Source: Mizugakiibacter sp.
GTDB lineage: Bacteria; Pseudomonadota; Gammaproteobacteria; Xanthomonadales; Rhodanobacteraceae
Length of the DNA stretch: 64,000 nucleotides
Direction: 5' to 3'
NCBI GenBank assembly: GCA_003233305.1
Contig: QILI01000133.1
Span: forward strand, 1-64,000
A model generated the notes under the pieces. The model saw only the letters and a list, made by a program, of their open reading frames with translations. It did not search any database and had not been told where the DNA came from. Position numbers and translations under genes: made by a program. Below, in pieces: positions 59,020-62,811 of this stretch; within the stretch, counting starts at the first letter, position 1; every line of letters starts with the position of its first letter.

Positions 59020-60660
59020 ATGACCGACATCCATAATGACAAAATCCTGATCCTCGATTTCGGCTCGCAGTACACCCAGTTGATTGCCCGGCGTATCCGG
59101 GAGATCGGTGTGTATTGTGAGATCTGGGCCTGGGATCACGACCCTGAGGCAATTCGTGCCATGGGTCCGCGAGGCATCATTCTCTCGGGTGGCCCCGGTT
59201 CGGTCACCGAGGCAGATTCTCCACGCGTGTCTCCGATAGTATTCGATTTGGGTATTCCTCTTCTGGGAATCTGCTATGGCATGCAGGCCATGGCTGTGCA
59301 GCTTGGGGGGGAGGTTGAAGCCGGGCATGAACGTGAATTTGGCCATGCCTCGGTGCGACTTACCGCTGCATGCCAGTTACTGGATGCGCCCTCCCCACCC
59401 CGGCCTAGCCCGGCCGGTGAAGGTGAATCCTGGATGGCTGCAGCACAACAACCCCATTTGCAGGGATTGCCAGTAGCCGCCCACCCGCTCCTGGATGTGT
59501 GGATGTCCCACGGTGACCAAGTCACCCAATTGCCGGCTGGCTTTGTGGGGGTGGCTAATACTGATAGCGTCCCATTAGTAGCGATGGCTGATGAGGCACA
59601 TCACTGGTATGGCCTGCAGTTTCATCCTGAGGTCACCCATACCCATGATGGAGTGGAAATACTGCGTCGCTTTGTTCTTGAAATCTGTGCTTGCAAAGCC
59701 CTCTGGACATCTCGCCACATCATTAAAGATTTGTCGCAGCGCATTAGCGAGAAAGTGGGCGGGGACAAGGTTTTGCTCGGCCTGTCAGGAGGGGTCGATT
59801 CCTCGGTGGTCGCGGCCCTGTTGGAACATGCTATTGGCGAGCAACTGGTGTGTGTATTCGTGGATAATGGCCTGTTGCGTCAAGGAGAATCCGAGCAAGT
59901 CATGGAGACCATGGCCCGGAACCTTGGCGCGCGAGTGATTCGCGTTGCTGCCGCGCAACGGTTCTATACCGCGCTGCGTGGGGTGGTGGATCCGGAACAG
60001 AAGCGAAAAATCATTGGTCGCATCTTTGTTGAGGTTTTTGAGGAGCAGTCTCGCCAGCTTGAAGGAGTGCGCTGGCTCGCCCAGGGCACTATCTACCCCG
60101 ATGTGATCGAGTCGGCAGGGGCTAAAACGGGCAAGGCTCAGGTAATAAAAAGCCATCACAACGTGGGTGGATTACCCGAACGCATGCAGTTGCAACTGCT
60201 CGAACCATTGCGCGAACTGTTCAAGGATGAAGTACGCCGGATTGGTGAGTCACTCGGACTTCCCCATGCAATGGTGTATCGGCATCCGTTTCCAGGCCCT
60301 GGGCTCGGAGTGCGTATTTTGGGTGAGGTGAAACCTGAATATGCCGAGTTACTCAGGCATGCGGATGCCATCTACATCGAGGAACTGCGTGCCCATGACC
60401 TTTACGACAAGGTCAGCCAGGCCTTTGCGGTATTTTTGCCGGTTCGCTCTGTAGGGGTCATGGGTGATGGGCGCGCCTATGAATGGGTGATCGCCTTGCG
60501 TGCTGTGGAGACGGTCGATTTCATGACCGCCCGTTGTTCGCATCTTCCTTACCCGTTCCTGGATAAAGTCGCCTCAAGAATCATCAATGAGATAAAAGGT
60601 ATTTCCCGGGTTGTATATGACATAAGTGGCAAGCCTCCCGCAACGATTGAATGGGAATGA
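59020..60660 (+). CDS. guaA: GMP synthase (glutamine-hydrolysing), with a repeat-derived insertion
   Basis: 546 residues, about 20 more than the usual 525. The N-terminal glutamine amidotransferase has the nucleophile in [11 protein letters not shown] and the His-Glu pair in LQFHPEVTH. The ATP pyrophosphatase has [11 protein letters not shown], and the dimerisation domain ends [12 protein letters not shown]. The extra residues lie at about 121-142 and read [14 protein letters not shown], the translation of a palindromic repeat. The insertion is in frame between two strands of the amidotransferase domain, before the conserved [10 protein letters not shown], so the enzyme probably stays active. 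Confidence 0.96.
59386..59430. repeat. palindromic repeat inserted inside guaA
   Basis: CACC(CC)GGCC at 59396-59405 pairs with GGCCGGTG at 59412-59419. The translated string [10 protein letters not shown] is a well-known product of mobile palindromic elements of the CCCCACCCC...GGTGAAGG type in proteobacteria. Confidence 0.55.
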
Positions 60661-60780
60661 CCTGACACTGACGGGTAATGACGGGTGGAACCCTCTCAAA
60701 ACCTACTGCACGAAACGAGTGATGTCACTACAAAACGCTGGGTTGTGCTACCCAAGGCAAGCGTGGTTGGATGAAACTGA

Positions 60781-62031
60781 ATGCCCCCCATTAAAAAATA
60801 CCAATGGACCTTTCCCGCACGTTTTCGAACCGGGGCCTATGGTTGGAAGGCCTCCCGACTCGTCTGCCAGCGTCTGCGCGAAGCCGTCTACGAGATCAAA
60901 AAGGTTACAAAGAAAGACCCCGTGCTAGGGGCGGAAGGCTCGGTTCGTCTGATGGAGAAACTTTGGCCGGCACTGGAGTATGTGGACAGCTCCAGCGGTG
61001 CGCTGGGGTCGGCTGTGTACAAAGCGCTGGATGCATTGATACCCATCATCATCGAGGCGCCGGCTGATGACAAGACGCGCAGCAAATGGCTCGTTCGACT
61101 CTGGCAGGCGATGGAAGATGACGGTGTCGATTACCTCGGCCCGGTTGGTGACCGTTGGGGTGAAATTTGTGGTTCGGTGGAAGTTGCCGGGCGATGGGCC
61201 GAGGATTTGGTTTCCACGCTGCGGTCCTGTTGGTCGGATCCGAGTCCCAGAGCCTATTTCCACGGTGCGACGGCGTGTTTGTCTTGCCTGCTAGTGGCGA
61301 GGCGGTATCAGGAACTGCTTGAGCTTTTGGATTTGAATCGGCATCCCATGTGGCATTATCGCCGCTATGGTGTTGAGGCATTGCTGGCGATGGCTAAGAA
61401 GGCAGAGGCTTTGCAGTATGCCGAGGCCTCGCGAGGGTTAAACCAGCCGGACTTTACGATTGACCAGGCCTGCGAGGAGATTCTGATCTCTTCCGGTTTG
61501 TATGAGGAGGCCTACCGGCGCTACGGATTAAGTGCTGCGGTGGGCAATTCCAATATCACCCGGTTTCGTGCGGTAGTGAAGCGCTACCCCATGAAGGACA
61601 AGTCACAAATTCTGACCGATCTCATTGCCACCACCCCGGGGGAAGAGGGTAAGTGGTTTGCTACAGCCAAGGAGCTCAAGCTTTTTGACCTGGCGCTGGA
61701 ACTGGCCAAGCGGAGTCCTTGTGAGCCAAAAACACTGACCAGGGCAGCGCGGGATTATTGCGAATCCGAACCGGTATTCGCGCTCGGTTCGGCACTGGTT
61801 GCGCTTCGCTGGTTGAGTGAGGGATGGGGTTACGAGGTGAGCGACGCGGATGTGGTGGAGGCCTATGACCGGGCGATTAGCGTCGCGACCAAGTTAAATC
61901 ACATTGGCGAGGTCACCGAGTATATCCGGCAACTCGTTGGGGCAAATGATAGTGCGTCAAACCAGTTCGTTCGACAGGCACTGCAGGAACGAATGTGCGC
62001 GTATCAGACAGGTAATCCTGCTGCGTCATAG
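60781..62031 (+). CDS. unrecognised helical-repeat protein between guaA and tadA
   Basis: 416 residues, soluble, without signal peptide or membrane segment. It begins MPPIKKYQWTFPARFRTGAYGWKASRLVCQRL. The rest looks all-helical with TPR/ARM-like pairs: FHGATACLSCLLVARRYQELLELL, GVEALLAMAKKAEALQYAEA, ACEEILISSGLYEEAYRRYG, and later TTPGEEGKWFATAKELKLFDLALELAKRSPCEPKTLTRAARDY. No catalytic motif is seen. I recognise the overall look of a conserved uncharacterised family but cannot name a function. It splits the guaA-tadA neighbourhood known in pseudomonads and is followed by AT-rich DNA, which suggests acquisition. Confidence 0.7.
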   Translation: MPPIKKYQWTFPARFRTGAYGWKASRLVCQRLREAVYEIKKVTKKDPVLGAEGSVRLMEKLWPALEYVDSSSGALGSAVYKALDALIPIIIEAPADDKTRSKWLVRLWQAMEDDGVDYLGPVGDRWGEICGSVEVAGRWAEDLVSTLRSCWSDPSPRAYFHGATACLSCLLVARRYQELLELLDLNRHPMWHYRRYGVEALLAMAKKAEALQYAEASRGLNQPDFTIDQACEEILISSGLYEEAYRRYGLSAAVGNSNITRFRAVVKRYPMKDKSQILTDLIATTPGEEGKWFATAKELKLFDLALELAKRSPCEPKTLTRAARDYCESEPVFALGSALVALRWLSEGWGYEVSDADVVEAYDRAISVATKLNHIGEVTEYIRQLVGANDSASNQFVRQALQERMCAYQTGNPAAS

Positions 62032-62292
62032 TGGTGCATTTTCAAAAAAACAACGGGATACGTACTATTTTTCGATGTAGCAAATACCGCATACAGTTAT
62101 AATTATTTTTAGAGCAATTACTTAGCCACAAAGATCTCATTTGATCGAGTATTGCAAACAATAACATATATGCGACTATATGGGGTATCTGATAGAGGTT
62201 CTTCATATTTTTTCCATGATATTGATACTAGCGGCTATCGGAAAGCCTGTGCCAATGCTGAACTTTTGCGAGCCATTTACAATCGAGTGGCA
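62032..62292. other. AT-rich spacer upstream of tadA
   Basis: 261 bp much richer in A+T than the rest of the window (for example ATAATTATTTTTAGAGCAAT). No gene or family motif is visible, although the tadA frame stays open upstream to 62152. It looks like an acquired or decayed segment. Confidence 0.45.
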
Positions 62293-62811
62293 ATGAGTAC
62301 AACCCTTCCGGAAGCCGCTGCAAAGATCGGTGAAGCCAGCGAGCACCAGCGCAAAGCTGATCTGCGCTGGATGCGCAGGGCCTTGGCGTTGGCACGCTTT
62401 GCCGAGGAACAAGACGATGAGGTTCCGGTTGGTGCCGTACTGGTTCTCGGAGAACATGCGGTAGGGGAGGGCTGGAACCGTTGCGTCACCCTCAATGACC
62501 CTACTGCCCATGCGGAGATTCTTGCCCTACGTGCAACGGGGGTACAACTGGCAAATTATCGTTTTCCAGGTAGTACCTTGTACGTAACTCTGGAACCCTG
62601 TGCGATGTGCGCGATGGCTTTGGTTCATGCCCGGGTGGAGCGTGTCGTATTTGCTGCCTTCGATCCCAAAACCGGGGCGGCAGGCAGCGTATTTGATACC
62701 CTGATCAGCGATCGGCACAATCACCATATTACGGCCGAGGCAGGCTTGCTCGAAGACCAGTCGGCAGAGCTTTTGCGGCATTTCTTCAGAGCGCGCAGGG
62801 ATAAGGACTGA
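62293..62811 (+). CDS. tadA: tRNA-adenosine(34) deaminase
   Basis: 172 residues from the ATG at 62293; the ORF-track start is 47 codons upstream in AT-rich DNA and adds non-family sequence. TadA converts A34 of tRNA-Arg(ACG) to inosine. The zinc deaminase motifs are TAHAEILAL (His and catalytic Glu) and EPCAMCAMALVHARV (two Cys). FDPKTGAAGSVFD and the C-terminal LLRHFFRARR are also family features. Confidence 0.94.
   Translation: MSTTLPEAAAKIGEASEHQRKADLRWMRRALALARFAEEQDDEVPVGAVLVLGEHAVGEGWNRCVTLNDPTAHAEILALRATGVQLANYRFPGSTLYVTLEPCAMCAMALVHARVERVVFAAFDPKTGAAGSVFDTLISDRHNHHITAEAGLLEDQSAELLRHFFRARRDKD

Follow-up and report, generated by a model that had tools for sequence, protein, structure and literature searches.

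The window, a 64-kb stretch of Mizugakiibacter DNA, carries between guaA and tadA an open reading frame of 416 codons (60781-62031, plus strand; ATG start, TAG stop), a candidate helical-repeat gene that is present in a single copy in its 2.66-Mb genome. The earlier note had placed the gene in this gap, had described the DNA behind it as AT-rich and had held that it interrupts a conserved gene order. All three statements were borne out, the last for the guaA-tadA part of that order: guaA ends at 60660, guaA directly precedes tadA without interruption in 7 of 10 assessable congeners, and the segment 62032-62290, with a GC content of 36.3% vs. 55.4% for the whole window, is the most AT-rich of its size (0 of 1,275 same-size segments are equally AT-rich). 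The features of the locus are as follows.

59020..60660, plus strand: guaA (GMP synthase; Pfam GMP_synt_C and GATase), the 3' end of which is the integration site
60643..60658, plus strand: putative left attachment core ACGATTGAATGGGAAT, within the guaA 3' end, matching ACAATNGAGTGGGAAT
60661..60780, no strand: left arm of the insert, its first ~27 bp resembling the left end of locus L021 (TGACCGGCACTGACAGGCAATGACTGG)
60781..62031, plus strand: predicted 416-aa alpha-solenoid protein of an unnamed family, the gene under study
62032..62278, no strand: AT-rich right arm of the probable cassette, largely decayed, aligning with the right arms of L004 and L087
62141..62200, plus strand: apparent promoter/start relic of a RelE/Gp49-HTH toxin-antitoxin pair, from alignment to L021, L024 and L004
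62279..62294, plus strand: putative right attachment core ACAATCGAGTGGCAAT, with 1 mismatch to the published guaA-element direct repeat
62296..62811, plus strand: tadA (deaminase domains), with its start codon directly at the right core

The start of tadA is likely the ATG at 62296; a longer ORF opening with TTG at 62152 was rejected as a merely mechanical extension.

In the three remaining assessable congeners (G002, G003 and G009) other DNA lies before tadA, and since empty and differently filled sites occur among congeners, the junction is an insertion hotspot in the genus. At the empty sites, from which the left arm (60661..60780) is missing, the guaA stop lies near or overlaps the tadA start (e.g., L101, ...GATTGAATGGGAATGAGCGCG...); a tadA start directly at the right core is what would be expected if the two genes overlapped or abutted before the insertion. 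As for the other fillings, an AbiEii-like start and a 312-aa ORF lie upstream of tadA in L096/L095 (G002/G003), and a helicase ORF in L102 (G009). The guaA-tadA position of the gene is seen again in other lineages (L013, L024 and G062); in G062 a decayed gene fragment stands ~200 bp upstream of a core, with tadA coming next after it, in the same place as in the window.

The guaA 3' end is a known integration hotspot (PMC7775301, PMC9376610). ICERspD18B inserts there, bordered by ACAATNGAGTGGGAATNNTT (PMC7775301), and the guaA-site genomic island GIsul2 has the core GAGTGGGA (PMC9376610). When the 64 kb were searched with the pattern ACAATNGAGTGGGAAT, two mismatches being allowed, exactly two matches were found, at 60643 and 62279, with the gene in between; a shuffled window gave 0.12 matches on average and never reached two. 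Both cores are degenerate (GAATGGGA and GAGTGGCA, the left one with two mismatches and the right one with one), and a repeat finder reported no direct repeats around the gene, the cores being visible solely through the published pattern. Moreover, the right core is identical at 20 of 21 bases to the core 3' of the gene in L022, and it matches the ICERspD18B repeat ACAATNGAGTGGGAATNNTT at 15 of 17 specified bases. The only coding part between the two cores is the 416-aa gene, hence the ~1.6-kb unit would be an integrase-less unit or a relic, not a complete island.

The same arrangement recurs in homologous loci. Ten loci, counting that of the window, have a forward core at 193-948 bp downstream, and none has one on the reverse strand; the downstream core is perfect in L004, L007, L012, L013, L018, L021, L022, and L026. 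With toxin and defence names assigned by reading of the sequence, L012 has the order core-HigBA-gene-core (2.5 kb), L013 guaA core-HigA-gene-core, and L026 core-AbiE-type genes-gene-core, while L021 and L024 have guaA core-gene-Gp49/HTH toxin-antitoxin pair-core. The right arms of these cassettes share a consensus with inverted ends (AATAAGCCATTGAATATAAAAGATAAAAAAGGCTTATTT, then the core), and where an intact antitoxin end precedes the core the spacing is constant, about 136-144 bp. A Gp49/RelE toxin with an HTH antitoxin, ~140 bp from antitoxin stop to core, was observed in seven loci (L004, L021, L024, L113, L136, L154, and L156), the pairs being mostly 90-100% identical between genera. In the window, the stretch 62141-62200 aligns with the corresponding parts of L021, L024, and L004 at scores of 52-55, the maxima from 300 shuffles being 27-32. 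The window copy is thus evidently a relic, with the gene intact and the toxin-antitoxin pair reduced to its promoter.

Given the cores, the empty sites and the related cassettes, we consider it very probable, as far as sequence can tell, that the gene is a horizontally mobile cargo of an att-bounded cassette inserted in the guaA 3' end. Several observations run counter to this reading: the window cores are imperfect and the right arm has decayed, neither a guaA core nor a tRNA-Leu is present at 14 of the 37 gammaproteobacterial loci that could be assessed, and some copies of the gene are broken, among them that of the sister genome G001 (L032) and about half of the matches in a survey of the class. 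Like other guaA-site integrative elements, the window insertion occupies the guaA 3' end, filled here and empty in the seven congeners, and has a direct repeat of the GAGTGGGA core at both ends, albeit degenerate; unlike those elements, which have a P4-type integrase of their own (with alpA), it has no integrase between its cores. ICERspD18B, in turn, is 28.5 kb long and carries integrase and conjugation genes (PMC7775301), neither of which is present in the ~1.6-kb window unit. By its cores, and by its right end via its relatives, the cassette may be placed with GIsul2, CR2-sul2, and ICERspD18B.

The likeness to CR2-sul2 extends beyond the guaA 3' end, the GAGTGGGA core and the lack of an integrase inside the unit. 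The last ~290 bp of the cassettes related to that of the window align at ~84% identity with the E. coli segment between sul2 and the guaA core, which is the published 304-bp end of CR2-sul2 (PMC9376610), and a match to this right end occurs in 1,751 of 5,426 complete E. coli genomes. In detail, L021:9834-10125 aligns with L159:9001-9286 and L160:5001-5290 over the antitoxin 3' end, the arm and the core; hence, the flank of sul2 contains a toxin-antitoxin remnant. The window itself aligns with the ~300-bp right end of CR2-sul2 in the core only (score 32), its arm being decayed. The window family differs from GIsul2 and CR2-sul2 in that sul2, rcr2, and the GIsul2 mobilisation genes are absent, the cargo being the solenoid gene with toxin-antitoxin or defence genes, and the window copy retains just degenerate cores.

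A survey for right ends with the pattern TTNAYAATNGAGTGGGANT, with the reversed pattern as control, detected them in 23 of 369 gammaproteobacteria, the control giving 0 in the genomes listed. Sedimenticola sp. BM503 (G065) has 15 strict guaA-derived sites. One of its contigs, C61 (L150, L151, L152, and L158), was seen to carry 10-11 sites in one orientation over ~41 kb. Its cassettes of ~1-16 kb hold, by reading, toxin-antitoxin pairs, AbiE-type genes, a PIN-type toxin, a phosphonate operon and chromate-type genes. A second array contig of this genome (C80, L153, and C29, L154, also carry sites) holds a KAP/QueC/TatD-like cassette, Qat-type by reading, and both of its cassettes end in a Gp49-HTH pair. 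Most cassettes in these arrays are without the 416-aa gene. A PF00589 (tyrosine recombinase) profile search of the contigs of L013 and L026 and of the array contigs C61 (the 41-kb one), C80, and C29 gave no match. We found no description of tandem guaA-site arrays in the literature searched, which lay mostly outside subscription journals, so that their novelty is not certain.

CR2-sul2, which has no integrase, is excised (attLR-attR) and integrated by the GIsul2 integrase (PMC9376610). By analogy with these published experiments, integrase-less units such as that of the window would move when a GIsul2-type integrase acts on their flanking cores in trans. We consider it about evenly balanced whether the gene is cargo of an integron-like system, in which guaA-derived sites delimit tandem, integrase-less cassettes moved in trans by GIsul2-type integrases. 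The cargo of these cassettes would comprise toxin-antitoxin pairs, AbiE, Qat-like defence, phosphonate and metal genes besides the solenoid gene, and many of them would be closed by a RelE/Gp49-HTH pair ~140 bp from the site. Such cassettes would resemble integron gene cassettes in being short, tandem, equally oriented units with many toxin-antitoxin pairs and apparently no integrase in cis, but their sites are guaA-derived by sequence, and they reach 16 kb and hold operons. If this is true, the sul2 flank would be the right end of one such cassette, and the origin of this widespread resistance unit would be tied to cassettes that are common in environmental sulfur-oxidising bacteria and their symbionts. 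The results also give a sequence-level account of the ~300 bp beside sul2, as an antitoxin remnant plus an attachment arm. Moreover, they connect guaA-site units, which we take to be known mainly from resistance islands, with environmental bacteria in which the cargo consists of toxin-antitoxin and anti-phage genes, and they make an orphan gene a marker of a mobile cassette system.

The guaA site is not the only one at which the gene is found. A guaA core or a nearby tRNA-Leu 3' end was present at 23 of the 37 assessable gammaproteobacterial loci; in 13 loci of this class a tRNA-Leu lies 108-1050 bp downstream of the gene, on the opposite strand and with its 3' end toward it, and one Desulfobacterales locus likewise has a tRNA-Leu downstream. 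One ~15-kb island without an integrase was traced from L117:14530 to L006:9487 (G062 contig 11, ~261828-276800). It is bounded by a perfect 20-bp repeat (20/20) of the 3' end of tRNA-Leu(CAG), with the gene at the tRNA-side edge, and carries besides the gene AbiE-type genes, a SNF2/PLD-type helicase, a type IIG restriction enzyme, an AlbA/Schlafen protein and an SMC-type ATPase. A tyrosine integrase was sought near the tRNA-Leu copies, and none was found close by; for most tRNA-Leu islands, the additional sequence examined did not reveal a left end. On the gene tree, the guaA and tRNA-Leu contexts each require a minimum of four changes, with the window copy nested among tRNA-Leu copies. This mixture of contexts suggests that the gene changed its attachment type repeatedly. 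On plasmids of Paraburkholderia and Burkholderia (L083:4650-11056 and L086:4650-11018), the gene was observed after tnpA-tnpC of a Tn3-family transposon; it overlaps tnpC by 4 bp and is followed by a tyrosine recombinase gene.

A scan of GTDB genomes returned 136 relatives, the best 80 of which are 45-87% identical to the protein; homologues at E < 1e-200 place the family far beyond chance. They come from Gammaproteobacteria, deltaproteobacterial groups, Gemmatimonadota, Acidobacteriota, Nitrospirota, Planctomycetota and others, and the gene is carried by 18 plasmids; homologues spread over many phyla and plasmids show identities of 45-81%. Its occurrence is patchy: within the genus it is present in 2 of 13 genomes, namely that of the window and one sister with a frameshifted copy, and of 369 gammaproteobacterial genomes sampled across the class 13 have a match, which in about half of these is no more than a fragment. 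One genome (G068) holds three copies at three sites. In the sister G001 (L032/L087/L129), the frameshift splits the gene copy, and the upstream DNA differs from that of the window beyond ~75 bp, which suggests that on their left sides both cassettes formerly extended further or had another composition.

The 416-aa protein is well conserved and without a named family. Searches of Pfam, NCBIfam, PADLOC and PHROGs returned no family above threshold, no PADLOC-DB model matched at E-values up to 10 (it is not a recognised defence gene), a profile search of the PDB returned no solved structure related by sequence, and no homologue was found among phage records. Residues W9, F11, W22, R31, E38, R100, W103, W126, W191, E232, and Y269 are invariant in 57 sequences, as is a second block comprising G287, E289, G290, K291, W292, F293, A294, and A296; in alignment A2, 46 columns are invariant across phyla. 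AlphaFold2 predicts helices only (pLDDT 91.8), long ones first and then short helical hairpins along residues ~163-409. These hairpins resemble those of TPR/PPR-type alpha-solenoids, and a Foldseek search with the full model retrieved generic TPR-type solenoids, with the TPR domain of OGT as the best match (E 8e-4). However, the TM-scores of the best matches are low (0.14-0.30), and no Pfam TPR model exceeds its cut-off, the best being a TPR-like SRP model at 13.3 bits vs. a cut-off of 35. The N-terminal 170 residues alone gave nothing convincing in Foldseek, generic helical-repeat matches at most, and neither domain nor structure searches revealed a DNA-binding domain. The dN/dS ratio is 0.08-0.24 in 18 pairs (0.15 between window and sister), indicating that the protein is kept for its function; the gene is, by this substitution pattern, real and under strong purifying selection. 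The family is a conserved and confidently modelled one that recurs at the edges of defence islands.

These results agree with what the earlier note had read from the letters, i.e., a helical-repeat protein with a strongly conserved N-terminus and a second conserved block, for which it had offered no function; our family search likewise yielded no named family and no described role. Neither of the findings that it had named as fatal to its proposal turned up, as the homologues occupy many unrelated positions instead of forming a housekeeping gene confined to this site, and a known role of the family did not emerge. Its proposal that the gene has a real and specific function, and this in an accessory setting, is supported by the dN/dS values, the patchy distribution, the plasmids, the insertion at a known hotspot with its att cores and the defence and toxin-antitoxin neighbours, with the identity of that function inferred. 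The att cores and the mobile cassette had escaped the note.

The neighbours, which the note had suggested examining for defence islands and toxin partners, are indeed rich in both. The gene is typically the last in a co-directional run, with short gaps to upstream genes that are unrelated among loci: HigA-type, YhaN-type, ZacC, DUF2326/type I RM, PLD-helicase, KAP ATPase, DUF4143 ATPase and others. Defence neighbours include Gabija, PLD-helicase, RM types I, IIG, and III, ThsA, ZacC, PsyrTA, HerA, and SIR2. At a threshold of 1e-25, PADLOC gave 167 model matches for 103 upstream genes (within 8 kb) vs. 44 for 104 downstream genes, the models being redundant and overlapping so that these are not counts of independent genes; some defence systems (Wadjet, AbiEii) also lie downstream. 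Any integration hotspot can be expected to have defence genes nearby, hence their association with the gene is no proof of a defence role. In L023 and L025, some 10 terminal codons of yhaN (~10, as in L030) persist 80 bp upstream of the gene although other systems now lie upstream, a trace of modules being exchanged beside a gene that keeps its place. The idea of a single fixed partner gene was rejected, the upstream genes being unrelated.

Since copies usually lie just downstream of defence or toxin-antitoxin genes, we speculate that the protein is a payload serving defence or stabilisation, a role drawn from neighbours and selection to which we give somewhat less than an even chance. As a stand-alone payload, it would guard either the cell or its island from phages or from elements in competition. 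Possibly it acts as an alpha-solenoid adaptor, whose invariant Trp/Arg-rich N-terminus and TPGEEGKWFA loop would hold one constant target, cellular or of the invader; a single constant target is proposed because the upstream partners change freely while these surfaces are conserved. The whole explanation, a mobile cassette with a defence or stabilisation role, may be right or wrong with about equal probability.

Other roles have to be weighed against it. The protein could aid the mobile DNA itself, in excision, target choice or the regulation of an integrase or transposase, as its place ~0.1-1 kb from the site in both guaA and tRNA-Leu islands and directly between Tn3-family tnpA-tnpC and a tyrosine recombinase gene on the Burkholderiaceae plasmids might suggest. 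Yet most cassettes in the same arrays do without it, in other phyla it also stands away from recognisable sites, by restriction or helicase genes, and an all-helical solenoid with no DNA-binding domain match fits such a helper poorly, so we regard this role as improbable. We are equally doubtful of a partnership with toxin-antitoxin modules, as a chaperone, third component or extra antitoxin. The gene does follow immediately on HigA-type genes in L007, L012, L013, L033, and L070 and on AbiE-type genes in L026, and it immediately precedes a Gp49-HTH pair in L004, L021, and L024, but the toxin-antitoxin families differ, the same pairs stand without the gene in other cassettes, and most tRNA-Leu copies follow defence genes of other kinds.

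That the gene is a neutral passenger, spread by linkage and now decaying, would account for the many frameshifted or fragmentary copies and for a window cassette that is itself a relic; the low dN/dS across the 18 pairs and between window and sister, together with the 46 invariant columns, make it more improbable still. Least probable by far is a housekeeping gene inherited vertically and lost in most relatives: its recurrence between guaA and tadA in L013, L024, and G062 would fit, but the gene is in only 2 of the 13 genus genomes, congeners have the empty site, attachment cores flank the window copy, and other copies reside at tRNA-Leu, on plasmids and in Tn3 elements, with contexts mixed on the tree.

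Outside Gammaproteobacteria, the gene was seen in four loci (L057, L071, L069, and L080) to touch or overlap either a ~535-aa gene or a gene for a TPR/SEC-C protein. The former neighbour forms a cluster (c17) with no Pfam match, and the latter occurs in Nitrospirota; possibly, they are fixed partners in those lineages.
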